A DNA stretch of 64,000 bases from Elusimicrobia bacterium RIFOXYA12_FULL_51_18. GTDB taxonomy: Bacteria; Elusimicrobiota; Elusimicrobia; Elusimicrobiales; UBA9959. A program made the position numbers and the translations under genes. Every line of letters starts with the position of its first letter. Within the stretch, counting starts at the first letter, position 1. The stretch covers positions 22,678 to 86,677 of the forward strand of contig MGVA01000028.1 in NCBI GenBank assembly GCA_001800245.1, read 5' to 3'. Below, in pieces: positions 6,807 through 62,900 of the stretch. Under the pieces are notes generated by a model, which saw only the letters and a program-made list of their open reading frames with translations, was not told the origin of the DNA and ran no database searches.

Positions 6807-6836
6807 TTGACACAAGCGCTGATTATCTATTAAAAT
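6807..6836 (+). promoter_or_regulatory. Promoter of FecR/barrel cassette 1, apparently leaderless
   Basis: A consensus TTGACA at 6807-6812, an 18-bp spacer and TAAAAT at 6831-6836. The ATG of the FecR gene is at 6844, so transcription would begin at or within a base or two of the start codon. No Shine-Dalgarno is visible before that ATG, which fits leaderless translation. Confidence 0.6.
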
Positions 6837-6843
6837 CACCCTT

Positions 6844-41210: not shown

Positions 41211-41392
41211 GCCTTGCGGAACCGCGTGATTATTGAGGGGCGGATGTAAAAAATGCGGATATCGTGCGATAAATTGTAAATCGCGCTTATGGTTTAACCT
41301 TAAATTCCGTGCGCACAAAATAGCGCTGAACTTGGCGAGTAACGTGCTTAAAGCGTATTTAAAAACATGTCCCAATCGGTTTGAGCGTTGAA

Positions 41393-44300
41393 ATGAGAGA
41401 ATATTCCACACTTCATAATCCACTCGCTCCTGGGTTGAAAAAATTGAACGCCTGGCGCGCCGTATGGTTCTGCCTGCGGTCCGCCGGTGTTCTGCTTGAG
41501 TGCCTGACCGCCGCTTTGTGGCTGGCCTCCGCCACGGCGGGGGCGGTTCTCCTGTTCGGTATGACGCGGGAGCAGCGGCTCCTGTTTACGGCTTTTTCCG
41601 CCGCCTGGCTGCTCTGGAGATTGTCCGCCGGCCTTGCCGATTTTCTGCCGGATCTGCGATTAAGGCGCTTTTCCGTCCTCGCAGAGGCCGCCCTTCCAAA
41701 GTTAAAAGGCCGTCTGTTGTCCGCCCTGGATTTGTCTGCGGGCGCTCTTTGCGCCGGAGCCTCCCCGGCCTTCGCGCGGCGCCATCTTGAGGATGCCGCG
41801 GAGCTGCTTAAAGAAGCGCCGTTCCCCGGTTTTATCTCCTTTAAAAGCGTTTTTACTCCGGCGCGTCTGGCCGGGCTGGCATCGGGTCTTTGCGCCGCCG
41901 CCGTGATCGCCTGGAGCGATCCGCAGACGTTCTACTGGTCTCTGCGCCCGTTGTCCCTGCGTCCCTTGGAGGATGTGATGGACATAAAACCCGGAGACGC
42001 CGGGATCATGCGGGGCCGCCCTTTCAGGATAGAAGCGGTTTTTAAAAACGGCGGCGAAGGCGAGCCTGAATTGTTCCTTAGTGCGGGGGAAAACGTTGCT
42101 GCGGTTCCCAACCGCGGTCCACTCTCCAGGAAAGCGGGTTATCCCGGCGCCGCCTGGAGCAGGGGTTTCATGACCGGGGCAGGTTCCGGACACTTCGTTT
42201 ACGCGGGCGTTTCCCTGGAGTCGGATCTGGCCTACCGCCTGAAATATAAAGAACTGCAAAGTTCGGTTTATCGTCTGAGGGTGGTAGAACCTCCGGCGCT
42301 CAAAGATATCCTTTTTTCGGTGATGCCTCCGGTCTATACCGGTGAAAAGAGTTCAAGTTTCCAGTATCTGCCTTTCGAAAGCGCGGTTCTTGCGGGGAGC
42401 CTTATCACTGTTTCCGGCGCCGCGGCCGGGAAGCCGTTTTCGGCGGCCTTAATATTCGACGGCGCGGGGGAAATGCCTCTTCGGGCCGCCGGCGGGCGGT
42501 TAAAGGCGGAGTTTACCGCCGCTGAGAACGTATCGTACAGGCTTTCGCTTAAAACGGCGGATGGGGAAACCGAACCGGACGATCCGCATTTTATCCGGGT
42601 TCTGGCGGACCAGGCGCCGGTAGTGGCGGTGCTTTCTCCGGCGTTTGGCGCCCTGGAGTCCGCGCCGGAGGAAGAAGTGACGGCCGTATATGAAGCCTCC
42701 GACGATATAGGTCTCAGGGAGATACGTCTTCGGAGGAAAGTTCAGTCCGGGGGCAGGCCGGTTGCGGACCTTTCTTTTGACAAAAGCGTTAAGGTCTTTG
42801 CCGAGCTTTCGATGCGGCGCTTTTCCGGAGAGGACGCGCTTGAGCTTTATGACCTGCCCGACGGGGCGGAAGCCGAGTTTGATTTCTCGGCCTGCGACCG
42901 TTCTCCGGCCGCGGTCTGCTCCGTAAGCGGTATCGTCAAGGTCAAGGTCACTGATTTTTCCGCCCGGCACGCTTCGGCCTATGCCGGGCTCGACGCGCTG
43001 AAGAAAGAAGTCGGGGAACTTAAAAACCGGGAGAACGGGATCATCTCGGATCTTGGCGGAAACCGGGTATTTACCGCGGCGGAAATGGCGGCCTATAATA
43101 ATGCCTGGAGGAAAACCGCCGTTTCCGCGGAAAAACTGGGCAAAGAACTTGATCATGACCCTTATCTGGGTTCTGGTACGCTGGCGCGCTTCGAGCTATT
43201 CAAGGAGGATCTGGCTTACGGCGCAAAAACCGCGCAGGAAAAGGCCGTTCCTGAAACTCTCTCGGGCCGGACCGCCCAGGCGGTAAAGACCCATGTGTCT
43301 TTAAGGAATTCGCTGGAGGCCGGTGAGCGCGGCCTTGAGGCCGCCTTGCGTTTTGAAAGCGCCCGCTCCTCAGCGTTCGGTTTTGAAGGGATGGCCAGGA
43401 GCGCTTCGGACATGGCCGGCGAACTTTCCTCCTTCGCCAACGGCTCACAGGACGCATCCGGCGGAGCCCCAGGCGGCGGTAAGGACTGGCGTAAGCTTGA
43501 AAGGACGCTTGAGAAGATAAGCGCCGAGCTTTCACGCATACAGGCCTTGATTAAAGACCGTCCTCCGCGCAAGACTGATGGTAAAACCTTCGTCCTGCCG
43601 GCTGAGAGCGCCCTTGAGGCGGCCGGCGAACTGGCCGCCGCCATAAAAGGCAGAGACGCGGCAAAGGCCTCGGCTCTGGCCGCGAAACTGGCGGAAAAAC
43701 TTTCACAGATGCGGCGGGTGATGGAGGAGTATGCGGCCTATCAGGCTTCCGCGGACGAGGGGCGGGGAGAAGCGGACAAGGCCGCCGAACTGTCCGGCCG
43801 CTGGAAAGCTCTTTATGACGCGCAGAGTGCGGAAACCGCGGCGGGCAGAGAGCTTACTGAAACCTTGCTGGTTAAAATCGAACGGGCGCGTACCAGTCTC
43901 CTCGCGGAATTGTCAAATACCCCGGTGTTGACGGCTAAAAGCCTGGCCGCTGTAAAACAGGAGACGCCGGGCGTTTATCCGGCGGTACAGCGGGCCGAAG
44001 AGAGGTTGAAAGCAAAGGATATGGCGGGCGCGCGCGCGGTTCTTGAGGGCGCGCGCGTAGAACTTATGAAGAGCACCTGCGTTCCCTGCGCCCCGGCTTT
44101 GCGCGCGGCCGAGGCGGAGATCCAAGGCGGGGTTGACCGTATCACCCGGCTGGAATCTGACGCCGCCCTGCTTGAGCCCGCCGCCCTGGCCCCGTTCCTT
44201 TCAGCCGCCGAAAAACAGGAAAGGGTCAGGCAGGAAAGCGCCGCCCTGGCGGCTTTGATAACCGGGAATTATTCAGGCGCGATGGCCGCAAGCCTGATAG

Positions 44301-44668
44301 AGAAGCTTGAAAAAGCCGGGGGTTACATGGCGAAGGCGGTGGAAGCTTTCGCCGCTAAAAATATAAGGCCTGCCGGGGAAGAGCAATTGAAAGCTTTGAA
44401 CGAACTTGAACTGGGGAACAAAACCCTTGATGATATGCTTGAAAAAATGAAATCTGCCGCCGCCGGGATGGACTCTTCTCCTAAACCTTCCGGAGTATTC
44501 ACGCGGCCGGCCTCCGGCCTGGATTCTTCTCCGGTTAAACTGCCGAAAGCGGGGGATTATATCCCGCCGGCCGAACTGCGCAAAAAGGTCATGGAGTCGC
44601 TTCAGGAGCGTTACCCTTCCTCCCAAAAGGATATTGTGGAAAGTTACCTTAAAAATGTGGCGAAGTAA
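41393..44668 (+). CDS. Large DUF4175-like membrane protein
   Basis: A 1091-residue protein. Two to three transmembrane helices lie in the first 180 residues ('LTAALWLASATAGAVLLF', 'LFTAFSAAWLLWRL', 'LAGLASGLCAAAVIAW'), followed by a large extracytoplasmic part. 'LKDILFSVMPPVYTGEKSS' near residue 300 resembles the Ig-like region of DUF4175 proteins ('PxYTG'). The C-terminal 500 residues are mostly long coiled coils rich in Ala, Glu and Lys ('KEDLAYGAKTAQEKA'). Such proteins often occur with MoxR/VWA genes, absent here. The function is unknown; a scaffold of the envelope is a guess. Start: ATG at 41393, no Shine-Dalgarno seen; a TTG at 41381 is in frame. Confidence 0.8.
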   Translation: MREYSTLHNPLAPGLKKLNAWRAVWFCLRSAGVLLECLTAALWLASATAGAVLLFGMTREQRLLFTAFSAAWLLWRLSAGLADFLPDLRLRRFSVLAEAALPKLKGRLLSALDLSAGALCAGASPAFARRHLEDAAELLKEAPFPGFISFKSVFTPARLAGLASGLCAAAVIAWSDPQTFYWSLRPLSLRPLEDVMDIKPGDAGIMRGRPFRIEAVFKNGGEGEPELFLSAGENVAAVPNRGPLSRKAGYPGAAWSRGFMTGAGSGHFVYAGVSLESDLAYRLKYKELQSSVYRLRVVEPPALKDILFSVMPPVYTGEKSSSFQYLPFESAVLAGSLITVSGAAAGKPFSAALIFDGAGEMPLRAAGGRLKAEFTAAENVSYRLSLKTADGETEPDDPHFIRVLADQAPVVAVLSPAFGALESAPEEEVTAVYEASDDIGLREIRLRRKVQSGGRPVADLSFDKSVKVFAELSMRRFSGEDALELYDLPDGAEAEFDFSACDRSPAAVCSVSGIVKVKVTDFSARHASAYAGLDALKKEVGELKNRENGIISDLGGNRVFTAAEMAAYNNAWRKTAVSAEKLGKELDHDPYLGSGTLARFELFKEDLAYGAKTAQEKAVPETLSGRTAQAVKTHVSLRNSLEAGERGLEAALRFESARSSAFGFEGMARSASDMAGELSSFANGSQDASGGAPGGGKDWRKLERTLEKISAELSRIQALIKDRPPRKTDGKTFVLPAESALEAAGELAAAIKGRDAAKASALAAKLAEKLSQMRRVMEEYAAYQASADEGRGEADKAAELSGRWKALYDAQSAETAAGRELTETLLVKIERARTSLLAELSNTPVLTAKSLAAVKQETPGVYPAVQRAEERLKAKDMAGARAVLEGARVELMKSTCVPCAPALRAAEAEIQGGVDRITRLESDAALLEPAALAPFLSAAEKQERVRQESAALAALITGNYSGAMAASLIEKLEKAGGYMAKAVEAFAAKNIRPAGEEQLKALNELELGNKTLDDMLEKMKSAAAGMDSSPKPSGVFTRPASGLDSSPVKLPKAGDYIPPAELRKKVMESLQERYPSSQKDIVESYLKNVAK

Positions 44669-44729
44669 GCAGCGGCCCCTTTTTCTCTTCCCCTTTTGAG
44701 TGTGTATCCTAAATCACATGACAAGGCTC

Positions 44730-44759
44730 TTGAACATCGCCCAGTAGCCGATGTATAAT
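44730..44759 (+). promoter_or_regulatory. Promoter of FecR/barrel cassette 2
   Basis: TTGAAC at 44730-44735, an 18-bp spacer and a perfect TATAAT at 44754-44759. The predicted start is near 44766, giving a leader of about 70 nt before the ATG at 44838 that contains a terminator-like hairpin. Confidence 0.7.
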
Positions 44760-44782
44760 AGTAACGGTGTTTAGGAGCGTGC

Positions 44783-44815
44783 CGGGACGCAATTTGAGCG
44801 CGTCGCGATTTTTTT
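44783..44815 (+). terminator. Terminator-like hairpin in the leader of cassette 2 (possible attenuator)
   Basis: CGGGACGC (44783-44790) pairs with GCGTCGCG (44800-44807), 7 of 8 bp, and is followed directly by ATTTTTTT (44808-44815). It lies between the cassette 2 promoter and the ATG at 44838, so any transcript from that promoter must read through it. An anti-terminator fold was not resolved by hand. Confidence 0.6.
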
Positions 44816-44837
44816 GATATTCAATGGGGGATTTTCC

Positions 44838-46517
44838 ATGACCTGTCAAACTATAGCGGATATGGGTCCGTTCCGGGGAGCGGTTGGCCGTCCGGGGGCC
44901 ATAGGCCCCGCCGAACCCGGCGGGCGCCGTTTTAGCCGCGGCGCTTACGCGAATATCGTTCCCGGATCCCCGTCGGTTTTTCATCGTTTTTTTTCCGTTT
45001 CAATTTCATTGTTCCTGCTTTTGGGCCTGGAAGTTTTTTCCGATGCGGCCAAGATCACAGATACCTGGGGTAAAGTGGAGGTCAAACGCCAGGGCGCCGG
45101 AGAGTGGCAGAGAGTGGAAGGTTCCGGCACGCTGAAAGCCGGGGATTCCATAAAAACCAATTGGCGCGGCAAACTTCGGATGTATCTGGAAGACGGCTCG
45201 CGTGTGGACATGGGCTCTTCCTCTTCCGTCACGCTTGACGCCGACGGAGCCGCGACTACGACTACGGTTAAGCTCGGAATGGGGTGGCTCAAGGCCTGGG
45301 TAAAAAAGGCCCAAAGAAAATTCGAGGTGCGCACCCCCAGCGCGGTCTGCGCCGTGCGCGGAACCGAATTTGAGGTGGAAACGGACGGGCGTAAAACTTC
45401 GGTAGATCTTGTAACCGGGCTGCTGGCCGTCAGTGATAACGCCGGCAACGAGTCCCTGCTTAATGCCGGACAGCATGTGAACGTGGACGAGCGGGGTATC
45501 GGTTCCGTTCAGTCTATTGAGGAAGGCCGTACCCAGCGCAGAGAGGAAAACCAGGTGGGGCTGAAGAACGAGGTCGCCCTGGATATGACTAAAGAACAGG
45601 TAATGGCCGCGGCTTCAGAGGAAATGAAGCTTGCCGAGTACCAGCAGGGCAAGAGCATGATAGACGTCTTCGGCGAGAGGGTGCGTCTGGAGCAGTATAT
45701 CGTGCGTCCCAGGGATAACCAGTTCAAGCTGGTGGTGCTGAACGACCGGAACGGCAGGTTCGACTATTTTTTCTATAAAGGCACTTTTAATACTTCCCTT
45801 CCCACCGACCTGAGCGTGGCTCTTGGACAGCTCGGGGGCTGCGCGGGCGCTCCGTGCCAATACTACATGACCTCCTACGAAACCGCCAGGTCCAATCTGA
45901 CGGACAAGGTTGAAGAGCTGGCTTCGGGCGGCCATCAGGTTAATGTGAACGCAAACGCTGTGGCCAACGACGACGTGTCCTCATATTTTGATTCTTCCCT
46001 CAACAGTTATGCTGGAGTTTCCGGCGCGTATTGGAAGACGCTCTTTGATAATTATTACATTAAATATAACGGCGTGACCTTCAATACCTGGGAACCCAAT
46101 ACGGGCGTTACCGCATACAACGGTACCCTCGGAACCGGCATACAAGCGTATTTTAAAGATGACGGCACCGAGCAGGATGCCTTGCACAAATACATAGGGG
46201 ATAACGGCGCTTTGGGCACCGCCCTTCCCGGGCAGAACTCCGACAGGAGTCCGGACGGGACGGTTTTGCACGATAAAATCAGGCTTACCTACGGTACCGG
46301 CGGCTACTGGGAACAGTACGATAACTACATCGTGAACGACGAGGGGCAGGTCGCGTCGCTGGGTGATTTCGACGGCAATCGCACGGGGGTTTCTTATAAG
46401 GAAACTCTCCTGAAATGGAATTTCGAGCAGGTGGTGACATGCAGTTTGTTCGGGGGAAGGAAGATCGATCTGGTCATTGAACCCAAGACCCTGATACAGT
46501 CGGGGCTTATAAGATAA
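44838..46517 (+). CDS. Secreted FecR-domain protein, cassette 2
   Basis: A 559-residue protein starting at the ATG at 44838, which has GGGGGA 7 bp upstream; a TTG at 44814 is in frame but sits in the T-run of the leader hairpin. The N-terminus is unusual: about 50 charged and Gly/Pro-rich residues precede the hydrophobic signal segment 'FFSVSISLFLLLGLEVFS', an extended signal peptide. The FecR domain spans about 72-200, with 'KFEVRTPSAVCAVRGTEFEV' at 161-180. Similarity to the protein at 6844-8709 extends past the FecR domain ('RVRLEQYIVRP', 'YIVNDEGQV'). No sigma factor or anti-sigma partner is close. It lies 35 bp before the barrel gene. Confidence 0.85.
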   Translation: MTCQTIADMGPFRGAVGRPGAIGPAEPGGRRFSRGAYANIVPGSPSVFHRFFSVSISLFLLLGLEVFSDAAKITDTWGKVEVKRQGAGEWQRVEGSGTLKAGDSIKTNWRGKLRMYLEDGSRVDMGSSSSVTLDADGAATTTTVKLGMGWLKAWVKKAQRKFEVRTPSAVCAVRGTEFEVETDGRKTSVDLVTGLLAVSDNAGNESLLNAGQHVNVDERGIGSVQSIEEGRTQRREENQVGLKNEVALDMTKEQVMAAASEEMKLAEYQQGKSMIDVFGERVRLEQYIVRPRDNQFKLVVLNDRNGRFDYFFYKGTFNTSLPTDLSVALGQLGGCAGAPCQYYMTSYETARSNLTDKVEELASGGHQVNVNANAVANDDVSSYFDSSLNSYAGVSGAYWKTLFDNYYIKYNGVTFNTWEPNTGVTAYNGTLGTGIQAYFKDDGTEQDALHKYIGDNGALGTALPGQNSDRSPDGTVLHDKIRLTYGTGGYWEQYDNYIVNDEGQVASLGDFDGNRTGVSYKETLLKWNFEQVVTCSLFGGRKIDLVIEPKTLIQSGLIR

Positions 46518-46552: not shown

Positions 46553-47830
46553 ATGACATTTAGCGGTACTACGGAATTTATAAGCCGGAAGAACAACAGG
46601 TTTGTTCAAAAAGCGGCCTATCTTATTGTTCTGCTGCTGGCCGCCTGCCGCCTGCCGCTTACCGCGTACGATATTACCCCTTACTACAATGCGTCCCTGA
46701 TGGGCGGGCAGTATTTTTATGAAACCAACGCAGGGGCTCTGGCCGGCAACGCTTCTTTGCTTGCCTCCGCCTCCATGAAATTATCTCCGGTGTTTACTCT
46801 TATCCCGCTCTATAGCGGCCGGTATCAGGGCGCTAAACAGGTGTCGGACCTAGCGGGCGGCGGGACGCTCTTTCAGGCGCTGATGGATCACAAAGCGGCC
46901 GTTAAAGGCGTCTATTCCGTCAGCCCTCTTTTAAAAATTAAGCCCGAGCTGGCCTTTAAGCGGGAGTACCTGAAAGAAACAAAAGATGAAGCCTGGGGCG
47001 ACGGTCTTTTTGACTATAAACGCCCCGGTTTTTCCATTGAAGGGGAATATAAATACAGCGATCCTTTCACTCTTCGCGTCGGCTACGATATTTATAATAT
47101 AAGATTCCACAATTACACATCGCTGGAGTCCCAGATCGGAGCCGTTGACGGAAGTCTTGCCAGGGAAATGGCCGGCGATCATACCCTGAATTCGATGAAT
47201 AATAATTTCTATATCGCAGGCAACGCTAAAATGCCCTGGGAGTCCCTGGGGGATGCGTCTGTCAGTTATACTATGCGTTCTTATGCCCATCAGCATGTAG
47301 TGAATGAGGCGGGGCAATTCAAGTCCGATACCAGAAGCGACAATGTGATCTCAGCCGAATTGGGCTGGCGGTTCCCCAGGAAGCTGGCAAACGGGAAAAT
47401 GATGACGCCGGGTCTGAGCCTTGCCTACGTTATGAACGGTTCGAACCAGAATAGTTATGATGCGCAGAATACCAAATTTATAAAGGACTATTACGCTTAC
47501 GGCAAGGTCAGGACCGGCCTGGACGCGTCCCTGCGGACGCCCCTGGCGGGAGAAAAGCGGTTCTGGGAAACACGGCTTGGCGTGGGGTGGGTCCGGACCG
47601 GCTATGCTGAAAGACTTGTGCAGGACGCCGCCGGACTTTATAAATCCGCCAAGATCTATATCGACGAGCTTACGGCGGCTGGTGATGTCTCTTACGACAT
47701 TGTGAAGAATTTCAAGTTGAAGGCCTCCATGCAGTACGGGCGCCAGAGTTCCAATATGAAATATGAGAAGCTTTATAAATATAGTTACGCGATGTTCAGT
47801 TATCTGATGGGGGTTACATACGAGTATTAG
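46553..47830 (+). CDS. Putative outer-membrane beta-barrel protein, cassette 2
   Basis: A 425-residue protein with an N-terminal extension before the signal segment 'AAYLIVLLLAACRLPLTA'. The body is made of amphipathic strands and ends 'YLMGVTYEY', an aromatic C-terminus typical of barrels. It is a paralogue of the protein at 9511-10740 ('TPYYNASLM', 'DEAWGDGLFDY', 'IRFHNYTSL' align with its counterparts). AGGAGG precedes the ATG. A hairpin and 93 bp separate it from the giant gene. Whether it exports or anchors the giant protein is untested. Confidence 0.8.
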   Translation: MTFSGTTEFISRKNNRFVQKAAYLIVLLLAACRLPLTAYDITPYYNASLMGGQYFYETNAGALAGNASLLASASMKLSPVFTLIPLYSGRYQGAKQVSDLAGGGTLFQALMDHKAAVKGVYSVSPLLKIKPELAFKREYLKETKDEAWGDGLFDYKRPGFSIEGEYKYSDPFTLRVGYDIYNIRFHNYTSLESQIGAVDGSLAREMAGDHTLNSMNNNFYIAGNAKMPWESLGDASVSYTMRSYAHQHVVNEAGQFKSDTRSDNVISAELGWRFPRKLANGKMMTPGLSLAYVMNGSNQNSYDAQNTKFIKDYYAYGKVRTGLDASLRTPLAGEKRFWETRLGVGWVRTGYAERLVQDAAGLYKSAKIYIDELTAAGDVSYDIVKNFKLKASMQYGRQSSNMKYEKLYKYSYAMFSYLMGVTYEY

Positions 47831-47857: not shown

Positions 47858-47923
47858 AGGGATGAAGGCTGAATGATTCGGGATTGATTTTTTATGAGCG
47901 TTAAAAACAAGGGTGAAATTATT

Positions 47924-50900
47924 ATGACGAAAACACGCATAAATTTGTTCAGAAAATTCCTATTGGCGGCTGTTTTGGCCTTTATCCCGATACGCGCGAT
48001 GGGCGTTTGGCCCGGCAGCGCGGTAAATTATCTTCCGGGAGCCGCCGGGCAGGGCCCTGTTGATAGTTTTTATTCTATCCAGGATGAGACTGGCGGGATA
48101 TATAATGTCTGGACGGCCACCGCTCCGGCGCATCCGAACTATCATCAGGTATATGTGCAGCATATAAATATGAACGGCGTTCCGGATTGGTTTACAAGGG
48201 TTAGTACTTCGGCCAATTATCAGGATTTATATGTGGATCCTAAATTAAGCTACGATGGTCAGACTGCCCTTAACGTGGCCTGGGGAGAACACGTGGATTC
48301 AACCGCCGGATCTGCCAAGGTTATGAAAGTAAAGCGTTTTATTTCTTCCGGCAGCATAGTGTGGGGCGGTGTGGGCGGCATACAGGTATCTTCCGGTATC
48401 ATTGACGGTGGCACGATGGAGATCTCTTCCGACGGCGGACCGGTTTTTATGATGGGGTATCCGGTTGGATCGGGTCTAAAGATGGTGGTTCAGAAATTGC
48501 AGAACTCCGGAGGCGGTTGCGCCTGGCCTGGCATTGGCGATTGCGTTACCGGAGCCTCCGGAACAGAGCTGTACTCCGCGGCCAACACCGATTCTATCGG
48601 TAATGTGGCTTTAGTCCCGTCCTCTTCAGGCATGCTGATAGTAGTCTCAACGGGAGTGGTTTCCGGAGACTGGGCTATTTATGCGCATAGGTTAAACGAA
48701 ACCAACGGTTCCCCTGTATGGTCATCCACTTTGGTCTCCGGTACAGGGGCCCGTGGAGGGATCGTGAACGGTATTTCCGACGGTTCCAACGGAGCTTATA
48801 TTGTTTGGGATGATGCAAGGAGCGGTTATAAAAATGTTTACGCCACAAGAATAGACAATGACGGAGCCGTTGTAACCGGCGGCGCCTGGTCCCTGGGCGC
48901 TAATGCGGGCGTGCAGTTCACAAATTTCACCGACGATATAAATAATATGCATGTAGTCCCGACCGCAGACGGTTTCGCTCTGACATGTTCCACCGTAACA
49001 GGGCAGGACCAGCGATTCCTCTTCGGTACAATGTCCGCGTCCGGGGTTATCCTCTCCTCCGGAGTGACCGCCGGGTTGGAGCCTCTCTACTCCCAAGCGG
49101 TTTGCAGGGATAGCGCCTGTTTTGTCGCGGGTTATAAGGGCGTGCCGGAGTTTACGGCCTATGTGGCCAGGATTACTCCGGGGAACTCCGTCAGTCTGTA
49201 CCCAATGTTTGCGGGCGGGGATTTTCCGTACAATATAGCGCTGTCCTCCGTAGCCGGCGGCATCGCGGCTTCCTGGACCAGCAGCGCCGGCGCGCAATGG
49301 GCGAGGTATGCCCCCGCTACGGTTTTTGACCGGCGCCAGGTTTCGGGCTTAGTCACTTTCAGCGGCGTTTATGAGCCGAATACGGTTCTCACAGTGTGGC
49401 TCAGCACCTCGGCTGATTTTAGAGGAGTCACCGCTTCCACCCATATCCCCAACCCTTCTACTACACAGTCCTATACCATATCCGATATCCCCTCCGGGAT
49501 ATATTATATGGCCCTGACGGCGTCGTTCGACTGGCAAGTGGTTGCCTCCACCCATCCCTGGGGAGTCCTGGGCCAGCTTGGTACGCCTACGGCGGTCGAT
49601 GTCACGATCGGCGACGTTTCGGGTAATAATGTGGCGATGACCGACGGCCATGTCCAGCCGAACCCCTGGTCTCCGGAATCACAGGCGCCTTCCATAGTTT
49701 CCTGCGTGGAGAACTTCGCTAACGGCGGTTCCTGCAGGATAAACGGCAACAGCACTTACGGCAACGCTATCGCCGTGGACGGCTCCGATAATAGTTATAT
49801 CATAGGCACCAATCTGACTGACTCGGCTATTGTGAAGTATGACGCTTCGGGCGTTATCGTTTCTTCAATTACGGCTAAATACGCGGTTTTCAACGATATA
49901 AAAATAAGCCCCGTCAACGGCGATCTTTATGTGGCGGCCCAGGGCCTGGTTTCCGGGATACGCGTATTCCGTTACGCCGCTTCCAATCTTTCTTTTGTTT
50001 CCTCTATAACCGTGTCAGGATACCAGGGAGCGCGCCAGTTGGATTTCGGCGCGGACGGCGAGGTTTATGTGGTTTCCGCGGTGGATAACGGGGGTTCCTA
50101 CGGTAACGATATAAGAGTGGTCAGGCTGTCGGCTAACCTGTCTTCCGTTACCGGAGATTGGAGCGATACGTCCAACGGTCCCGATCAGGGGATCGGCATA
50201 CATGTAAGCGGGGGAGACGTTTTTGTGACGGGGTTTCAGCATCCAGTTTCAACTGATCAGGTTGTTGTCATCAGGCTGAGTACCGCTACCACCATGTCCA
50301 AGCTGGATACAGGGACGGCTGGTACGTCCCCCGTCGTTTTTGCCGAGGGGGAAGGTTTCAACCATTTCCGCGTCACTTCCGACGCCACAGGCGTTTATGC
50401 GGCTTATAGTTATCTTCTTAATACCAGCACCCAGACCGCTATATACCGCTTTGACAGGTCGAATATGTCGGCCGGATATTCGTCGGCCACCATGGCGGGC
50501 GCCGCCGCTTTCGGCGATCTTAAATCTTCCGGTTCCAAGTTTTTTGTTGTTGCGCAGTCGGATGGCAACCAGGCCCGTGTAACGCGGTACGATGCCGCAA
50601 CTTTTGCGGCGGAGGCCTCCACCCGCGCTTCGGTACCTGCCGCCTACGGCATGGCTCCCGGCGGTATGGCCTTTGGCACCGGTGGAGAGGTTTATCTGTC
50701 GGGTGCGCTGCCCGATGCCGGTGATTCTGCGAGTATCGGTATAACCAAACTTGATTCTGTTGCCGGTCCGGTTCCGGGGGAAGAGGAGCTTATTACGGTA
50801 TATGTCTCTACCGCAGACGCTTCGCCGGCCGCTTTTACAACCGGGGTGGAAGCCGCCGCCTTGAGGATGGATATCTATACCGTTTCGTCCTCAACTTCTA

Positions 50901-53900
50901 TTTCCAATGTCAGGGTAAGCGTCAATCCGAATGGCCCCTATACGCGGGCGGCCTATGTGGGTTTTTATGTGGATAGCAACCGAAACGATATCTGGGAGCC
51001 GGGAACCGACGCGCTTATTTCAAGCGCCGCCGTTACCTCGGCTTTTGTGGACCTGCCTGTGGCCGCGGGAATAATAAATAACGATCCGTACGGTTCGTTC
51101 ATTACCCTTACTCCCTCCGCTTCAGCTCTAGGTTCCAGTATAAATCTTGGCATAGATTCAACCGCCTCATTCACCGTGGGAGGCGTTATGGCGGAGCAGG
51201 CTGTGTATCCCATAAGGTCGGACGCGAGATTGGTTCAGCCCCCGGTGTCCTTCAGCGGGGGAGGGCTTAACGGGCCGAGCGCTTCGATTTTGAACGGCAC
51301 GGCTATGGATCAGGGTGTAGATGTAAAAGCCTATGGTTCAAGCGTTTATGCCATAGGTATAGCGTATCCTAACTCCGTGTTGATAAAATACAGCACTTCC
51401 ACAGGCCAGGTGGCCGCTTTGACCGGCCTTTCGGGAGTGGATTTCACGGCTTTAGCCGTGAATGCGAACGGGATTTATGTAACCGGTAAGGGCTACTATG
51501 CGCCCGGGTTCGTGACTATAAAATACGCGCATGATCTAACGATTGTTTCTTCGGTCACGCTCGCGGGGGCTTCCAGCGCCTACGGTATAACTCTGGATGG
51601 CGCCGGCAGGGTATATGTTATCGGGGACAATGCCGGAGAGGGCGGGAGCAATAACGATTACAAAATAGTCGAATACAATTCCGATCTGGTCCAGCAGGGC
51701 GCGGCTCATATCTGGAACGCGGGCGGAGTTGACTATGGCAAGGGTATAGCCGTATCCGACGACGGTTCTCTTATTTATGCGACCGGCCTTTCGCTTATGG
51801 GCGGAGCCACATATTACGCCACCGCTAAATTCGACGGAGCTTTTGTATTCGTTTCTTCAACCGCTTATCCGGGTTATGCGGACGATCATATTGATACGGT
51901 CGACATAGTGCAGAATAGCACCAGCGGCGCCGTTTATTTGGCCGGTTCCGCTAACCACGAGGCGATGCTGCTTGCCAAATATAATTCCAATCTGGTGCTG
52001 CAGTCCACCGCCGGGGTCTACAGCCCGGCTTACGCTGTGGGCGCCGGTATCGCGCAGGATAGCGTCGGCAACGTATATATAGCCGGCGGCTATAATGCCG
52101 GCGGCGCGGCGCATGATGAGAATACGGTGGTCAAATTCAGTCCCGCCTTGGTCAGGCAGTCCAGTGCTACGACCTTTTCGGCATACGGATTTGAACCCGG
52201 TGGTCTCGCGCTGGACGGTTACGGGTATCCGTATGTGACCGGCGTGCTGTTGGTTTCCGGTTCTTCTTCCACCTGGGATATGAAAACCGTCCGGCTGGCC
52301 CAGCTTGCCGATGTGGTAGCCGCAAAGCCTTATATAACGGTAACGGTTCCTTACGGTGGGGCGGTGGATGTTTCAAGCGGCATAAGGTATATCGACATTA
52401 CATTCAGTGAGCCTGTGACCCCGGCCTCGCTTAATGCCGGCGGCGATGGTTTGTCTCCTTATCTTATGTTCAGCAAGCCGGGCGGGTATCATAACCCGAG
52501 ATTTACCGGTTTTAGCAATCTCTACGGCAATACTTACCGGATAGCTATGGTGGATGTGGATCTTGACTCCAACACCGTGTACACGGTAGAGGCCGCTAAT
52601 TTTGAAAGCGGTTCGGCAGTAGTAATGGATCCGGCTTCTTTCTCCTTCACTACAACAGGCTCCGCTCCCGCGGGGAAACCGTCCATCACCGCCACCAATC
52701 CGACCGCCGGCGCAACCGGGGTTTCCCTTGGGTTGACGGCTATAGATATAACTTTCAGCGAACCTATAGTTCTGGACGCGGGAGATATAGGCGGTAAGAT
52801 AAATCTGTTTGTCGGGGCGGAAGATCGGTACAACCTTCTCTCCACATTTACATATGTTTCAGGCAATACTTACAGGCTTGAACTTAAAAACGGGCCTCTT
52901 GCGGCCGGGACGGTTTACAGGGTTGAACTGTCTAATTTCGCTAATGAAAGCGCGGCGGTTATTGACCCGGATTCATTCAGCTTTACCACCGAAGCCGGCG
53001 CGACGACGGTGAACCTGCTGGTGCAAAATGCCGCTTCCCCTTACATGAGGTATTACAGTACCAACTCCGCTCTGAAGCTTTCCCTTTGGACGGATTCCGG
53101 CTCCTCTCAATGGTCGGCAATGACCGTCAATCTTGGAGGCACGGTCGTGCCCTGTTCCGACGTGGATGCTTTGTATGTGTACAGGGACAGCGGGGACGGG
53201 GCATATTCCGACACAAACGATTCCTATGTCGGTTATGCGTCGCCCTGTAACGGCGGTACGTTCAACTTCTATACCCCGGAGACTATAGGCGTTTCCACCA
53301 GTGTTTACTTTGTGACCGTGAGTCCCAGATCCAGCGCTATCGGCAAAACCGCGCGTCTCACTATTACAAGCACGGCCGCGTTCACTATAGGCGGTTCGGA
53401 CGTTATGCATTCGCTTACCGGCATGCCGGCTAATTCGGCCATAGCCACTGTGATGAACTATATATATGCCAGCGAAATGGGATCATATAATTACGACACC
53501 AATATTTCGGTGATAGCGGGACAGGCTTTGCAGATAAATGCGACCGGCTATTGGAATTATGACGCCACACATCAGGTGAACGCGGACGGTTCTGGCGAGT
53601 GTTCCAGTACTTGTCCTTTGCCTTCGGCCTACCGCGGAGCGCTTATAGCCCGCGGCGATTCGACTCCCTGGTTCGTGGTAGGCCGGTCCACCACTATCGT
53701 GCTCGGCTACAGCGATACGCTGCGCCTTGCGATGAACGACGACGACTATAACGATAATACCGGCATAATGATGTTTGAAAAAGCCGCCCAGGCCGTCACC
53801 AAGATCTGGACCGGAGCCGCTTGCGGAGGCGTAGGCTGCAACGAGGCCGGGAATCCCATGAACTGGCAGGGCGGAGTCCTGCCCGCCTACGGAGATAACG

Positions 53901-56900
53901 TGGTCTTCGGCGGCACCGGCGCAAAGGATTGTTTGTGGAATCTTAACATAACCGTGAACAGCCTGTATGTCTATCCGGAATACAACGGCCGTATCAGCCT
54001 GATAAATCCTCCGGGCATGAATATCAACAGGCTTGAGATAACGGACTATCTCTATATACGCGGCGGCACTTTTGACATAGCGGGCAATATCCTGGCCGCT
54101 TCTTCAATAACCGTTTCCGGCGGCGTCCTTGACCTGGGCGCCGGGCTGGGCGACTTGCAGGTAGGCCCGGGCGGCTTGAACGTTACCGGCACGGGAACGC
54201 TCGCCTTTACCGGTAATACATCCGCATCTATTGATCCGATGGCGGAGGGATATTACCCGATATCTATATTCGGCGGCACCGTGACAGTGAACGGCGCCGG
54301 CCTTCTTAATATACGTGGTTCCAACGGCATCGCAATATCCAACTCTCCGGCGCTTACGTTCAACAATGTCAGGATAATGAATCTGGCGTCCGGCGCCACC
54401 GCTCTCAGCATTACCGCGGCTTCGGGCGATTACACATTCGATAATTGGGGTTTTGATGCGTCGGTCACCAATAATGTTGGCCTGACCGGTTCCGCCATGA
54501 TTTATATGAACAACGCTTCCGGAGCTCAGATGGGGACCCCGCATGAACTTTCGGACCCGGATAACAGGATAATCTGGAATCCGGACGGCGGCGGGACCGG
54601 CAGTATCGGAGGCAACCTTAGTTATTCCGGAAATAAGACCGGAAACTATATAGTTTTTGTTACCACGAATATGACCAGTTCCAGCTTTGCCGCCATTAGC
54701 ACTTCCGCGTCAACCGGCTATTCGTTCGGAAGTCTGAAAGCTCCCGCCACTTACTATCTGTGGGCCACCAGGGACTCAAATTCTGACTATGATTATACGG
54801 CTTCCATCATGGAACCAATCGGCTGGCTGAATGCGCCGGTGTATTTATCCACTGGTGCGGCTCTTACGCGAAACATGACGCTTTTGGATACGGGGAAGAT
54901 CACAGGAACTATAGACAAGAGCGCCACTAACCAGGCCGGCATGACCATAGTGGAATTGCATACTCAGCCGCTTTCCGCCACTTCGTTGTTCGATTGGCAG
55001 GTCCTGGACCAATGGGAGTATCAATATCTGGTCGCCGCTCCGTCCGCCACCTATACCGTGCTGGCTTATATAGACGTCAACCAGAATGAACGCTTCGATC
55101 CGGCTTTTGAAAGCTCCGGTACCGCGACCGATGTGCTTATTTCAACAGGCGGGACGGTTACGAATAATATAGCCCTTAATTCCGGTTCCGTGGAGGCCGG
55201 TGGAATTGTGGGAATTTCCACCACCGCTTTCTTTGCCGGAAGTTTTATAGGCAAGACAAATTCCGCGGCTGTGATGAAGTTAGGCCTTGTTTCAAACGGC
55301 GGAGAGGCCACGGTTGGAAGTCTGAGGTTCAGCTCCATTGGAACGGCCGAAGCCGGCAAGTTCAGTCTTTCCGTTTACAAGGATGACGGCAACGGACTGT
55401 TCGATAATGATCCTTCCATACCGAATTCAACGTACAATGATATGTTGCTGGGAAACGGCTATTTCGGAGGAGTTTCTTCACAGGCCGCTATCTCATTCAC
55501 GAACGAAGTCGGACTGCTCAGCAGCGGCGCTACGCAGTATTTCTTTGTTATGCTGACGGCCACCAACCCGGTTTCAGGCTCCACCATAGGGGCCGTGCTG
55601 CTTTCTTCGGACAGCGTGGGCTTGTTGAAGGGGACTATGGCCGGTCAAGCCATATACCCGGTTTCCACGCCTCTCAGGACCGTCAGTGATTCCATAGATG
55701 TCTGGTCAACCCTTTATACGGGTGTTGACGTATATTCCGGTCAGACCATAAATATTTCCGCTTCCGGCCAGTGGCAGGTTAATGGCGTTTATGTTTATGC
55801 CACCGGCTCCGGCAGCAATATGTACAACGGCGTGTATCCGAACGCTCCCGTGGGAGCCCTGATCGCCCAGGTCGGTTATAACTCGCCTTGGTTCTATGTA
55901 GGCACTTCCACAAGTTTCGTTTATTCCGGCATGACAGGGCCTCTTATGCTGCATATGAACACCAATTATGACTTCGGTACCATGATGTGGAATTATCCCA
56001 ACGGGGTGAGCGGCCAGCTTTACGTGAATTATTCGGTGGAGGGTGACACGCACGCCGTGATTTCCGGCTTAGTCACCTACGCCGGAGGCACAAACGGCAC
56101 CATTATTGTAAATGCCGGCAGCCGCAGGCCCGATCTTAGCAGGTATGAGTGCCGGGTCATGACTCCCTCGGAAAGCTGTATGGTCGACGTTATCGTCGGG
56201 ACCCATACTATACCCAGTCCGCTTGCCGGCGGTACCAGTTATTACACTATGGGCGGCATTGAGATACCACAGGGAGATTCCGACAACGTAATTATTTCCG
56301 CTTACATTCAGGAAGATCCTTCCCAACGCGGGATCGCTCCCACGCAAGTCGGGATACGGATAGGCCAGGCTGCGACAGGCGGGGATGTTACGGTCTATTC
56401 CGGCGCGGGCACGCTGAACGGTAACATCAGCTATTCAGGCGCTCAGCAGTTCGGGAATACCGTGGTGGCTTTGTTCACCAACCTGGAAGGCGGGAACCCC
56501 GTAGTTTCCACTACGCTGGCGGAAGGAGTTTCGGCTTTCAGTATAGCTGATATACCCGGGCCGGCCCTTTATTATGTGGTCGCTTTCAGGGACTTGGATT
56601 ATGACAATAAACCCAGCGGTCCCGAACCGTTCGGATATTACGGGTCAACCGGTCCTATTTCTCTGATGAGTTCCAACGCAGTCCAGTTGAATGTGGCTTC
56701 AAACGTCGTTACAAATGTGCCGGCCACGATTAACCTGCTGGATATGGGACAGATCAACGGACGCATCGACCTTGGCAGCCTTCAATTCGGAATAAGGGTT
56801 TTGGTGCAGGCCGGTCACGGCATTCCCGGAAGTTCGTTCGTGAAAGAGAACCAGTCGGAGTACTTCGCCCAGCCTTGCTGGTGGTACGGCTGTATTAACG

Positions 56901-59900
56901 AGGTCTATTACAATGTCGGAACTTTGTCTCCGGCCGAGGATTACACGGTCGTCGCTTTCCTGGATAAAAACGGAAACAATCAGTGGGATTGCGACGCGGA
57001 AAATTGTGAAAGATTCGCTTCCAGCCGCAATAATATATCTGTGACCGCTAACGGCATGGCCCAGGCGGATATAGCGCTGACCGCCGCTCCGGTTCCCGAT
57101 ACGCCGCAATCGTTCAGCGGCACGGTCCTGAGCACGGACGTTATACTTTGGGCGTGGAACGATGTGCCGACCGAGACCAGTTACTATCTGACCACTTCCA
57201 CAGGCGGTATATTGCATGTCCTGGATGCGAACACCACCCAATACAGCGAAACAGTGGCCGGCGGGGCTAATACTATAAGTTCCGTGCGCGCCGTCAGGGC
57301 GCATAACTATGCCGGAGACAGCCCGCTTTCATCCATGATCGCGCTTTATACGAAAGCCGCCGCTCCCGAGCTTGTTGTCAACGGAGTTAGCGCCTCTGAA
57401 GTGAATCTTGGCGTTTCCAGCGCTACTAACCGTTTCGTTTTGCAAAGAAGCACCGCTATTGCCGGTGGCTATATCGTCGTTTACAGCACTTATACGGGGA
57501 CTTCTGTCACTTCACGCGTTGACGCGGGATTGACCCCCGGCACCACCTATTACTACAGGGCCTTGAACTTCAACGCCCAGAGCGTGGCAAGCGCTTATTC
57601 CGCGGTTGCGATCGCGACCACCACCGCTCCCACCGGTTATTTTATAAGGGGCACGGTCAATTATCCCGGCCTTATGACGGGCAATATAACCCTGCTGGCG
57701 TCCACGCAGGAGTTCCTGTCCAATCCCATCACGGTGGCCTTATCCGGCAATACCACGCAGGCCTATTATCTGACCGGGCTAGCCAGCAATACGTCTTATT
57801 ACATACGGGCGTTCGTGGATTATAACGCCGACAACGCCAGACAGATATACGAAGACGCCAGCGCTATTGCCGGCCCCATTTACCTTGCAGCCTCCGGTCT
57901 TTCCGGCCAGGACATAAACATTGTACGCAGCACCGCTATTCCGGCTTCTCCATCCGGACTGGTCGCTACGCCCGGCTTCCAGCGGGTGAGTCTGCAGTGG
58001 ATAGCTTCCGCCGCCTCCAATCTGATCGGTTATGAGGTTTTTAGGAGCACAAATGCGTCCTTCTCTTCGGCGGTAACAAGGGTTTCCGGAGATAGTTTTG
58101 TCACCGGCGCCTCTTTCACGGACTTTAACCCCCTGGCGGGAGTTCCGTTGTACTACAGGGTCAAGGCCGCGGATTGGGGGCGGAACCGCAGTTTGCCCGC
58201 CGCGCTTTCCTCTCCGGTCAATGTGTCCGCCGGCGGCAGTATAACCGGCACGGTCTATGCCGTGGATACCTCCACGCAGGGGCTTTATCATGTGCGCGTT
58301 TCAACCACGCCGGACGCCAATGTGCCCAGCCTTATGGATATTATGGTTTCCACCGCGCCCGCTACGTATACCGTTTCGGGTCTGCCGGACGGTTCCTATT
58401 ACGTTCGCGGATATCGCGACTTTAACAATGATTTTAAACAGGACCGCAGGCAGGAGCCTTCCGGCACTCATGGGGGCATAGCCAGGCCTTTTGATATTTA
58501 TATGACCCAGGGCAATAGTCTTACCGGCATAGATGTTAAGGTCTGCAACAGGTTGCCGCTGGCGGTGGGGGTTTCCACAAGAGTTACGATTTCAGCCACC
58601 GGCTGCGAGGCCCTGGACCGGGGTCCCGGTTATTATACCAGGGTCTACACGCTGGAGGCCGGTTACGGCGCGGGCAAGGTGCCTACAGGCTCGCAGATCA
58701 CCGTGTACGCGAACAAGACCGATCCGTTGGACGGCATAAACGACGCTTATCTGTATCTGGTGGGTCCTACCGGAGATGTCGTAGCAAGGGATGACGATAG
58801 CGGCGGGGATATGAACTCCAGGATACAATATACCCTGGACACTCCCGGAGTTTATCTTATAGAACCCACTTCCTACGCTTCCGGCCTGTCCGGAGCCCTG
58901 AACGTGGGCTTTGATGTGACAGGCGGATTCGCCGGCAGGATCTCCGGCACGCTCAGTTACTCCGGTTCTATGACCGGGCCTTCGGTCGTGCAGATTTACG
59001 AAACTCTGACGGCTAATTCATGGCCGGTAATGATGTCCTCCACCTCGGTTTCGGATTTTGAGATCATAGGGCTCAGGGACGGGAATTTCTATCTCAAGGC
59101 GTTCAAGGACGTCAACGGTAACGGGGTCCAGGACTCCTTCGAACCGTACGGCGTTTACGGCGGCACTACGGCCGTTCAGTTTTCTGTAAGCGGCGGCGTG
59201 ACAAGCGCGTCGCTTGCCATAACGCTGGCGGAGCCTGCGGTCGGTTCGGTGTCCGGAAATCTATTTTATAACGGCGGGCGGACCGGTAATATCAGAATAG
59301 AGGCGGCAAGGCAGCGCGGCAGCGACCAGTACGATCTGGAAGTGGTGAAATTCTCCACTGTGACGCGCGGAAATGAAACCGTGGATCAGGCATATATTCT
59401 TGACCTGCTGGCGCCCGCTACCGATTACACTATCAGGGCTTTCGTTGACGAGAACAGCAATAACCAGAAAGATGTGATGGAGCCGTTCATTTCCGCGCGT
59501 TCTATCACAGTTACCGCCAGCACCCAAACTACCGGGGTTAACCTGAACATCGTAAATCCGGGCAGTGGAGGAGTCGGCAACTCTATCCTGAGCGGCGCGA
59601 TCACCTACACTCCGATTCCTGGCCAGAACTATATTTCAACCGGCAATATCTGGGTAGGCTGGGCAAGCGACCAGAGCTTTGAGAACATCTTGTATTCGCA
59701 GGTGGTTTCAACGTTTACCCAATATGCTTCCTCCACCGCGTGGACCTATTCCAAGAGCGATGTAATGGGCGGGGCCACCTATTATATGGCTTCGTTCCTG
59801 GATCTCAACGGCAACGGTCAGCCGGATGATAGGAACGGCGAACCGATGGCTATGTATTCGATCGATGGGGAGATGGCTCCTGTATCTGTGCCTACCTCAT

Positions 59901-62900
59901 CGACCGTGGTCAGGAATCTAGCTCTTACCCCTCCTTCAACCGGCTATCTCAGCGGTGTTGTGCATTATTACGGCGCTATGACGGGGTCCGCTAAAGTCAG
60001 CGCGTGGAACCAATCCTGCGAGAACACTTCCGAACAGAAGGATTGTTCCGCTGAAAACTACTTCGCTATTATCAACGGAGTTACGGATTACCCTTTCACG
60101 CTGCGTTTCCTGAATCCGACCACAAGCTACCAGTTGTCGTCCGTTATCGATCTGAACGGTAATCAGATGACGGATCCGGGCGAGCCGAACGCTTATCTTC
60201 CCGGCTACATTGTGAGCGGTTCCACTACCGCAGCGCTCACTATCATGGATCCGGGCCAGATGGCCGGCGGGAATATAGGCGAGATCCGCGGCATCGTCAC
60301 TTACGGCGGACATCAGGGCGGGGATAAGATAGTAAGGCTGTTCCGCGGCGGTTTCTACGGGGCTCCGGTTCAGACCATGAATATAAACGCCGGCTGCCTC
60401 GGCAATTCCTGCAGCTTCGCTATCAGCGGCTTGTCTTACGCCGCCGATTACTATGTGGACGCTTTTGTGGACTCCAGCTTCAACGGGATGTTTGAGCCGG
60501 CTTTTGAGCCGCACGGCGGCATAACATCGGCTATAAGTGTATCCCAGGCCGTGCCGCAGTCGCGCAATAATTACATGACCCTGGAAGATCCGGGAACGGG
60601 CGCCGATATTCCGACCGGCAGCAATCTGCTTTCCGGAATGGTTAGCGTACAGGGCGGCACTCCGTCCGGCACCGTGCGCGTACAGCTGTTCAGGTTCGTA
60701 AGCACGGTAAGCGTGATGGAAGTACCTATAAGGGTGGCAACCTACCCGTATGTATCCTCCGCGAATCAAACCCCGATAAGTTATTCGTTCGATAATCTGC
60801 CCAGCGACGGCGGCGCCAGGTATATCGCGCAGGCTTATGTGGATTCCAACTCCAACTTCACTCCGGACAGGAACGAGGCCTGGGGGCAGACCAAAGCCCT
60901 GAACCAGGGAATTTCAACCTCGGATCCGGCGGAGCAGAAGAACTTCTCCGTCTGCGCCAGGACTTCCATTGACCAGGGACAGAACCTGAACGGATCGCTG
61001 GAAACTTCCGATTGCGTGAGCTCGGACAGGGGCCAGGCGTCGGCTTTCGTGGACTACTATTCCTTCGGCGGCCGCGCCGGAGACATAGTCACGCTGGAAA
61101 TGACAGGGACCGGGTTCTCGGACACCTATCTTTATCTGTACGGCCCGTCCATGCGTAGTACCGAGGCTTTTACCAGTTATAATCTGGCCGCTTTTGATGA
61201 CGATGGCGGCGGTAATTACAATTCCAAGATAAACGGCTATACGCTTACCGCCGACGGCATATATACTATAGGCGCCGCTTCGTACGGCAATAACATAACC
61301 GGCGCTTATACTTTGTCTATGCGCGTTTCCGGCGGGACCAACGGTTCGATAGCCGGAACCGTCCGTTACAACGGCACACAGGGCGGCAATATCAACGTGG
61401 GCCTGTTCAACTCTAATCCCATGGAAGCGCAGAACGTGAACTCTATCATGGGTGCATCCATGCAGGTTCCGGGTGCGTTCCTGTTCGGCGATCTGCCCAG
61501 CGGAACCAGTTATTACATAGCCGGTTTCGTGGATGTCAATGGGAACAACTCCCCCGATCAGGGAGAGGACTTCGGGATGTATCCCAATATTATCACGCTC
61601 AGAGCCGGCCAGAACGTCACCGGGACGCTGCTGGAAATAAATCATAGCACCGACGTGGTCTTCGTGGGCGGGGCCGGCCAGGGAACCATTTCCGGCGCCA
61701 TAAGTTATACCGGTATCTCCACCGCGACATCTCTGGTCATAGAGATGTGGAATACCGCCACGTTCAGGGGCACTCCCATCGGTATACGGACCATGCAGCT
61801 CACCGGCGAATGGCCGGTAAATTATGATCTTCAGGTGCCCGGAGACCAGACCTATTATCTTAAGGCGTTCCTTGACGCCAATAATAACAGGATGCCCGAA
61901 CCCAGCGAAGCTAAAGGCGCTTATACTCCTAACAATGAGGGGCCTGAACCTATCTATGTCGGTTCGGCGGCTTATATCACGGATCGTAACTTCACGCTGT
62001 ATGACCCCGGTCAGACATTAGCGGGCGGCGCCCAGGGCGTGTCCGGAGAAGGCTGGGCCTCGGTTCTTCCTTCGTTGGTTGCGGCCGGCAGCCAGTTCAC
62101 GTCCACTGTGACCGTGCGCGTAACCGGTCTTGGTGAAGGCGGGGTAGTCATGGTCGGTATGCCCAACAATCTTTATAGTTCCCTGCAGACGGGCTGCTCC
62201 GGGTGTCCCGGATATGTTCAGGTCAGTTCGGACGGGACGCATTATAGCGCGGCGCAGCTTATCTCAAATAACGCGCAATATCGTGTGCCGATGGGCCAGA
62301 GCCTGGCGGCCGGCGCTTCCGTATACTTTGCGATAAATAATCTGTACGCGCCGTGCCAGGGAGGCATGACCGGCCAGCAGTCCGATAACAGGCTTGTGTT
62401 CCACGTAGGCACTTCCAGCAACGCTTTCACAGGGCCCCAGCCGCTAGTCAGCGGCGAGCCTACGGCCGTGCTGGGGGCGGGCGCTCCCCAGAATCTGAGT
62501 TTCCGTCTGGCCGATAATATGAACGGCGCCAATATGGCCGTTCCCAACGGCGAGGTTACCCCCATGCTGGCCGAAGCGAGGGATAATTGTTGGAATCTCG
62601 CTCCGATGTCCTCGGTTTATATCGCGACCGTAAGCGCCTATTTTTACAACATGGCCACCTACGGTTATGATAACGACGCGACGGTCAAATTCTCGACATG
62701 GAATGCCGAAGCGGATTCTGTTACAGCTACGAGCGCGACCGTGCGTTTTGAGGCTGACAGTTCCACCGGGGTCTTCTATGTTAAGCCGACGGCCCAGGGC
62801 TATAGGAACATAGGTCTGTCGTACGATCTCGCTTGGTCCAACACGTTCTATATGGGCGTGCAGGTTATGGCCGGAGGGGGTATCAGCGGCGCGAACGTTT

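Follow-up and report, generated by a model that had tools for sequence, protein, structure and literature searches.

Promoter-proximal sequence elements of a FecR and giant-protein cassette in an Elusimicrobia genome: a recurrent palindromic box and a genus-level leader stem-loop

Results

The cassette 2 locus

The window analysed here, 64,000 nucleotides of a single contig, carries two FecR gene cassettes. Cassette 2 lies in its second half, on the forward strand, behind a gene with which FecR is syntenic in several genera:

41381-44668, + strand: upstream gene, 1,095 aa, membrane-anchored as judged by eye, no Pfam match
44838-46517, + strand: FecR-domain exported protein, 559 aa (Pfam FecR, 2.6e-16)
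46553-47830, + strand: putative outer-membrane barrel protein, 425 aa, no Pfam match; the barrel is the reading of the first-pass annotation
47894-64000, + strand, running past the end of the window: giant exported protein, 6,774 aa in the contig

Of the 61 genomes searched, 34 have FecR homologs. In the same-genus genome G003, which holds the sole close ortholog of the cassette 2 leader, FecR is followed by a protein 70% identical to the putative barrel. A scan of genome contigs for a third close ortholog returned the G003 locus only. A literature search on the regulation of such giant-protein cassettes found no paper.

The coding sequence has features of its own. The FecR N-terminal stretch that precedes the signal segment (44838-44960) is longer than in G003 and contains a very GC-rich palindromic stretch, GGGGCCATAGGCCCC (44895-44909), apparently an in-frame insertion. 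Within the same N-terminal stretch, TGGCCGTC...GGCCATAGGCCC is similar to a portion of a dispersed repeat. A dispersed repeat with GACCCGCTGCTGCGGGGAATCCTGGCCGTCTGATGGCCATAGGCCC (L003-L008) is present in at least 11 copies in the same genome, several of them at contig ends; it may be a mobile element at which the assembly breaks off. A MITE-like element, an inverted repeat of GGAGCCTGTCCGACATAAG and CTTATGTCGGACAGGCTCC about 200 bp apart with no obvious gene, was observed in L093 (320-532).

A sigma-70-type promoter and a short leader precede FecR

The interval between the upstream gene and the FecR start codon holds the following elements:

44703-44718, + strand: palindromic box TGTATCCTAAATCACA, a candidate operator for a regulator, 11 bp ahead of the -35 hexamer
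44730-44735, + strand: -35 hexamer TTGAAC; its positional counterpart in G003 is TTGCCT
44754-44759, + strand: -10 hexamer TATAAT, likewise TATAAT in G003
44782-44791, + strand: conserved block CCGGGACGCA with the 5' stem arm (44783-44790), identical in G003
44799-44807, + strand: conserved block CGCGTCGCG with the 3' stem arm (44800-44807), identical in G003
44808-44815, + strand: ATTTTTTT run directly after the stem; CTTTTTT in G003
44826-44831, + strand: ribosome site GGGGGA; GGGGGATTTT(C/A)C-ATG is kept in G003

The promoter TTGAAC-18-TATAAT matches the consensus at 10 of 12 positions, where 0.8 such sites are expected per 2 kb, and G003 carries TTGCCT-17-TATAAT at the same position. The two hexamers, their spacing within 16-18 and their conserved position are those of a sigma-70 promoter. 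Both the promoter and the ribosome site proposed in the first-pass annotation thus have counterparts in G003. Transcription is predicted to start at about 44766, leaving only some 17 nt of leader ahead of the stem. FecR begins with ATG at 44838; an in-frame TTG at 44814 is out of frame in G003, so the ATG is preferred.

The leader stem-loop is marginal by sequence and conserved in a sister species

The stem pairs the 5' arm CGGGACGC (CGgGACGC, 44783-44790) with the 3' arm GCGTCGCG (GCGTCgCG, 44800-44807). The hairpin has seven Watson-Crick pairs, one G.G mismatch and a 9-nt loop (-10.1 kcal/mol). The T-run adjoins it, as in an intrinsic terminator: an A and seven T's in the window (44808-44815) and a C and six T's in G003, with the stem one base from the T's in both. 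A standard terminator scan did not report this hairpin, because its loop and mismatch exceed the limits of the scan, and the leader folded no better than shuffled sequences (z +0.73; +0.43 in a second computation). Random sequence yields 12-24 stems (one mismatch or fewer) beside six or more T's per 0.44 Mb on both strands, a chance of about 0.2% per 72-nt leader strand. On sequence alone the coincidence of stem and T-run is mildly unusual, and the element is no more than marginal. A GC hairpin followed by a T-run had been described in the first-pass annotation; the hairpin and the T7 exist, and to call it a clear hairpin would overstate one that the scan misses and that folds at the level of shuffles.

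Comparison with G003 gives the element more weight. In the sister leader the two arms are intact (19/19 bases), six of the T's remain, and promoter and ribosome site are kept. Its 5' end and loop have changed, the loop being 7 nt longer in G003, and the leader has diverged wherever it is not arm, T-run or ribosome site. Conservation reaches a base or two past the paired positions and also takes in the ribosome site. Four-fold synonymous identity to G003 is 0.47 in FecR, 0.43 in the upstream gene and 0.34 in the barrel gene, near saturation for these flanking genes. Retention of 19/19 arm bases by drift at such identities has p below 1e-6, a value to be read as a guide and not as a formal test, since the blocks were chosen after the alignment was seen. 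Because the leader element is conserved despite these near-saturated sites, it goes beyond chance, and the stem-loop and U-run are very probably under selection. This comparison covers two orthologs in draft genomes, with predicted start sites.

The element probably acts as RNA. The distance between the core arms changes by 7 nt, from 14 to 21, which is no helical turn; an RNA hairpin tolerates such a shift, which suits it better than a DNA operator. The arms themselves are invariant and offer no covariation, and only two orthologs among the 59 family genomes carry the element.

The hairpin would be a weak terminator at best

Intrinsic terminators are in use in this genome. Over the 0.44 Mb scanned, out of 2.75 Mb in the genome, 12 of the 13 strongest candidates were intergenic (two of the 12 being opposite strands of a single site); the 13 scored 21-29, most with perfect 8-13-bp stems flush with T6-T8. 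The leader hairpin scored on a par with hairpins inside genes. By a d'Aubenton-Carafa-type formula, which combines hairpin and tail, the d-score was negative for both the leader hairpin (-23) and its G003 ortholog (-31); ten strong terminators of the genome, computed with A entered for the last three tail bases, ranged from +20 to +64. When folding of the nascent RNA was predicted as far as the U-run, the terminator stem was a minor fold, at a probability of 0.12 in the window and 0.008 in G003, because other folds compete. These models suggest that the leader hairpin is at best a weak, partial terminator or pause. It resembles intrinsic promoter-proximal attenuators in having a stem one base before T7, between promoter and ribosome site, and in being kept in a sister species. 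It differs from them in its mismatched 8-position stem, its 9- to 16-nt loop and its negative score, and searches of the leader for an antiterminator, a leader peptide or a ligand domain found none.

Competing folds are available in each leader. When the window and G003 leaders were folded in search of a conserved antiterminator, none was found: the alternatives to the stem lack homology between the two orthologs and so provide no evidence of one. A search of both leaders for a conserved open reading frame was likewise negative. One candidate peptide, GTG-CCG-GGA... (start 44779), was rejected, as its start codon is too near AGGAG and is lost in G003. The G003 fold sequesters the ribosome site; the window leader shows no such sequestration, and this idea was also set aside. 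The leader matched no Rfam family at strict or permissive thresholds. Its one likeness to the GEMM (c-di-GMP-I) riboswitch is the string GGGACGCA; there is no Rfam match even at the permissive threshold, and no second helix.

The stem and U-run are absent from syntenic relatives in other genera

Besides G003, seven genomes from other genera (G007, G016, G018, G022, G025, G027 and G030) show the same order of upstream gene and FecR. By inspection, none of the leaders in those seven has a stem followed by a U-run. Leaders of genus g12 (L030, L033 and L034) carry GC-rich inverted repeats at the same position with no U-run, and their minimum-energy folds share no common hairpin; in none of the relatives tested was leader folding energy clearly better than that of shuffles. 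Among the 59 family genomes, the exact two-arm pattern occurs at the cassette 2 locus only in G003 and the genome of the window (G000), with two further matches in other genomes. No second copy of the leader was found in the window's own genome, where GACGC...GCGTC is no more frequent than its reversed control.

Cassette 1 also differs. Its FecR gene (ATG at 6844; window 6807-6846) is preceded by TTGACA-18-TAAAAT, which ends 7 bp before the ATG, and its mRNA is apparently leaderless. Together with the seven relatives that have no U-run, this indicates that read-through control is no class-wide property of FecR cassettes; the leader stem-loop and U-run appear, as far as seen, confined to one genus. 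A different arrangement was observed just upstream of FecR in L024, L025 and L026 (G032:C48, G006:C44 and G036:C23), where a promoter lies inside a stem resembling a terminator, TTGACACTACCCCCTCATTATATTATGATGAGGGGGTAGTTTTTTT. This stem would form in incoming transcripts, while those of the nested promoter would start in its 3' arm and escape.

A palindromic box recurs upstream of the -35 hexamer across the family

Many of the promoters compared here carry, upstream of the -35, a box with a consensus of about TGTAWC-NNAA-GTYACA. The window box matches the consensus drawn from relatives at 12 of 12 positions, and G003 has TGTATCGTAAGTCACC 10 bp before its -35. Allowing one mismatch or fewer, the pattern TGTATCNAAAGTYACA gave 80 sites in 36 of the 59 genomes, against about 25 for the reversed control. 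Eleven of 49 box matches have a FecR homolog less than 500 bp downstream (0.03 expected), a count that is partly circular in that several of those loci had suggested the pattern. Loci independent of the choice of pattern include cassette-1-type genes in G000, G001 and G007, as well as G005:C133 and G026:C26. The core TTGAC of the -35 begins 8-11 bp downstream of the box at 11 of 31 sites (0.1 expected) and 21 bp downstream at one of the 31. Behind the box we observed FecR cassettes, exported proteins and, as identified by eye, a glutamate dehydrogenase-like protein and response regulators.

Crp/Fnr operators are dyad-symmetric, with the geometry TGTGA-N6-TCACA, and stand in helical phase with their promoters. 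TGTATCCTAAATCACA shares the TGTnn-N6-nnACA layout and the phased position above the -35. Two HTH proteins of Crp/Fnr type are encoded in the genome, and the recognition helix of one contains E-T-V-V-R. The half-sites differ, TGTAW/TYACA in place of TGTGA/TCACA. We infer that a Crp/Fnr-type protein is the best candidate to bind the box. The phased box, at 44703-44718 in the window and in L096-L123, marks a candidate global regulon of Crp/Fnr type across the family. The family-wide control feature seems to be this palindromic box and not the stem-loop, and transcription initiation at the box appears to be the best-supported control point.

Discussion

We tentatively favor a model in which the box sets initiation and the genus-level stem-loop adds a weak, constitutive terminator or pause, though we hold it with less than even confidence. 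Cassette 2 would be transcribed from its sigma-70-type promoter, with initiation probably set by a regulator, for which a Crp/Fnr-type protein is the best candidate, on the box 11 bp above the -35. Lying no more than about 50 nt past the predicted start, the stem-loop and U-run would form in the RNA and most likely act as a promoter-proximal terminator or pause that most polymerases pass; such partial termination may trim expression of a costly operon. Regulated antitermination is neither needed for this model nor seen. The initiation half is favored because the box is a 12/12 match, recurs before FecR genes and is phased with the -35. The terminator half draws support from the conserved arms and T's, a loop length that varies and a stem one base from the T-run; it is weakened by negative d-scores, a stem that is minor before the U-run and the lack of covariation.

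The negative terminator score also fits a somewhat less probable, indeed unlikely, reading in which nothing terminates: the stem-loop would be a post-transcriptional element at the mRNA 5' end (protecting the end, setting the context of the ribosome site, or binding a small RNA or an RNA-binding protein), with the U-run a single-stranded linker or binding site. Conservation past the paired bases and in the ribosome site, and the inverted repeats of the g12 leaders, which have no U-run, point the same way. This reading leaves the conservation of the T-run directly after the stem to be accounted for, and sits poorly with leaders that fold no better than shuffles in any relative tested and with g12 minimum-energy folds that share no hairpin. 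That the hairpin is merely a chance neighbor of the T-run in a slowly changing leader is suggested by a score at the level of hairpins within genes and a fold z-score of about zero; the divergence of the leader outside the arms, T-run and ribosome site, beside near-saturated synonymous sites, makes it very doubtful. An operator for a repressor just past the start site, formed by the inverted repeat GACGC...GCGTC as DNA, would explain the identical arms, and a position of about +20 to +42 would suit a roadblock repressor. We give this even less credence: the arm-to-arm distance differs between the species (14 versus 21 bp, no helical turn), and the paired motif is at such a locus in only those two genomes.

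The first-pass annotation had read the leader as controlled by read-through or antitermination. In such a regulated attenuator an antiterminator, a protein or a ligand would switch read-through. The order of promoter, stem, U-run and ribosome site, conserved in two species, and a competing fold in each leader are consistent with this. Set against them are the non-homology of those folds, the roughly 17 nt of leader before the stem, the absence of a conserved leader peptide or an Rfam match, a weak hairpin, and a stem and U-run common neither to cassette 1 nor to other genera. We consider such an attenuator improbable. Regulated read-through or antitermination of cassette 2 is unsupported, since the hairpin is weak, folding revealed no conserved antiterminator, seven syntenic relatives of other genera have no U-run and cassette 1 looks leaderless. 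What stands of that annotation is the promoter and the stem-loop and U-run before the ribosome site, the latter observation partly confirmed; its proposed folding of an alternative antiterminator yielded nothing shared by the two orthologs, and its comparison of relatives recovered the element in G003 and no U-run in seven relatives of other genera. More specifically, a dedicated RNA-binding protein or ligand might recognize the CCGGGACGCA...CGCGTCGCG-U7 leader, switch a weak terminator and so gate an operon for a 6,774-aa surface protein. This proposal is a long shot; if true, it would add a new class of attenuator from an uncultured lineage.

If the leader acts as a weak terminator, it would illustrate how production of a secreted giant protein, at very high cost to the bacterium, is kept in check. 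A stronger outcome is that the same phased box stands before FecR cassettes, exported proteins and other genes in one uncultured family, which makes for a testable regulon. Given this shared box, expression of the giant-protein cassettes may answer to one global regulator.
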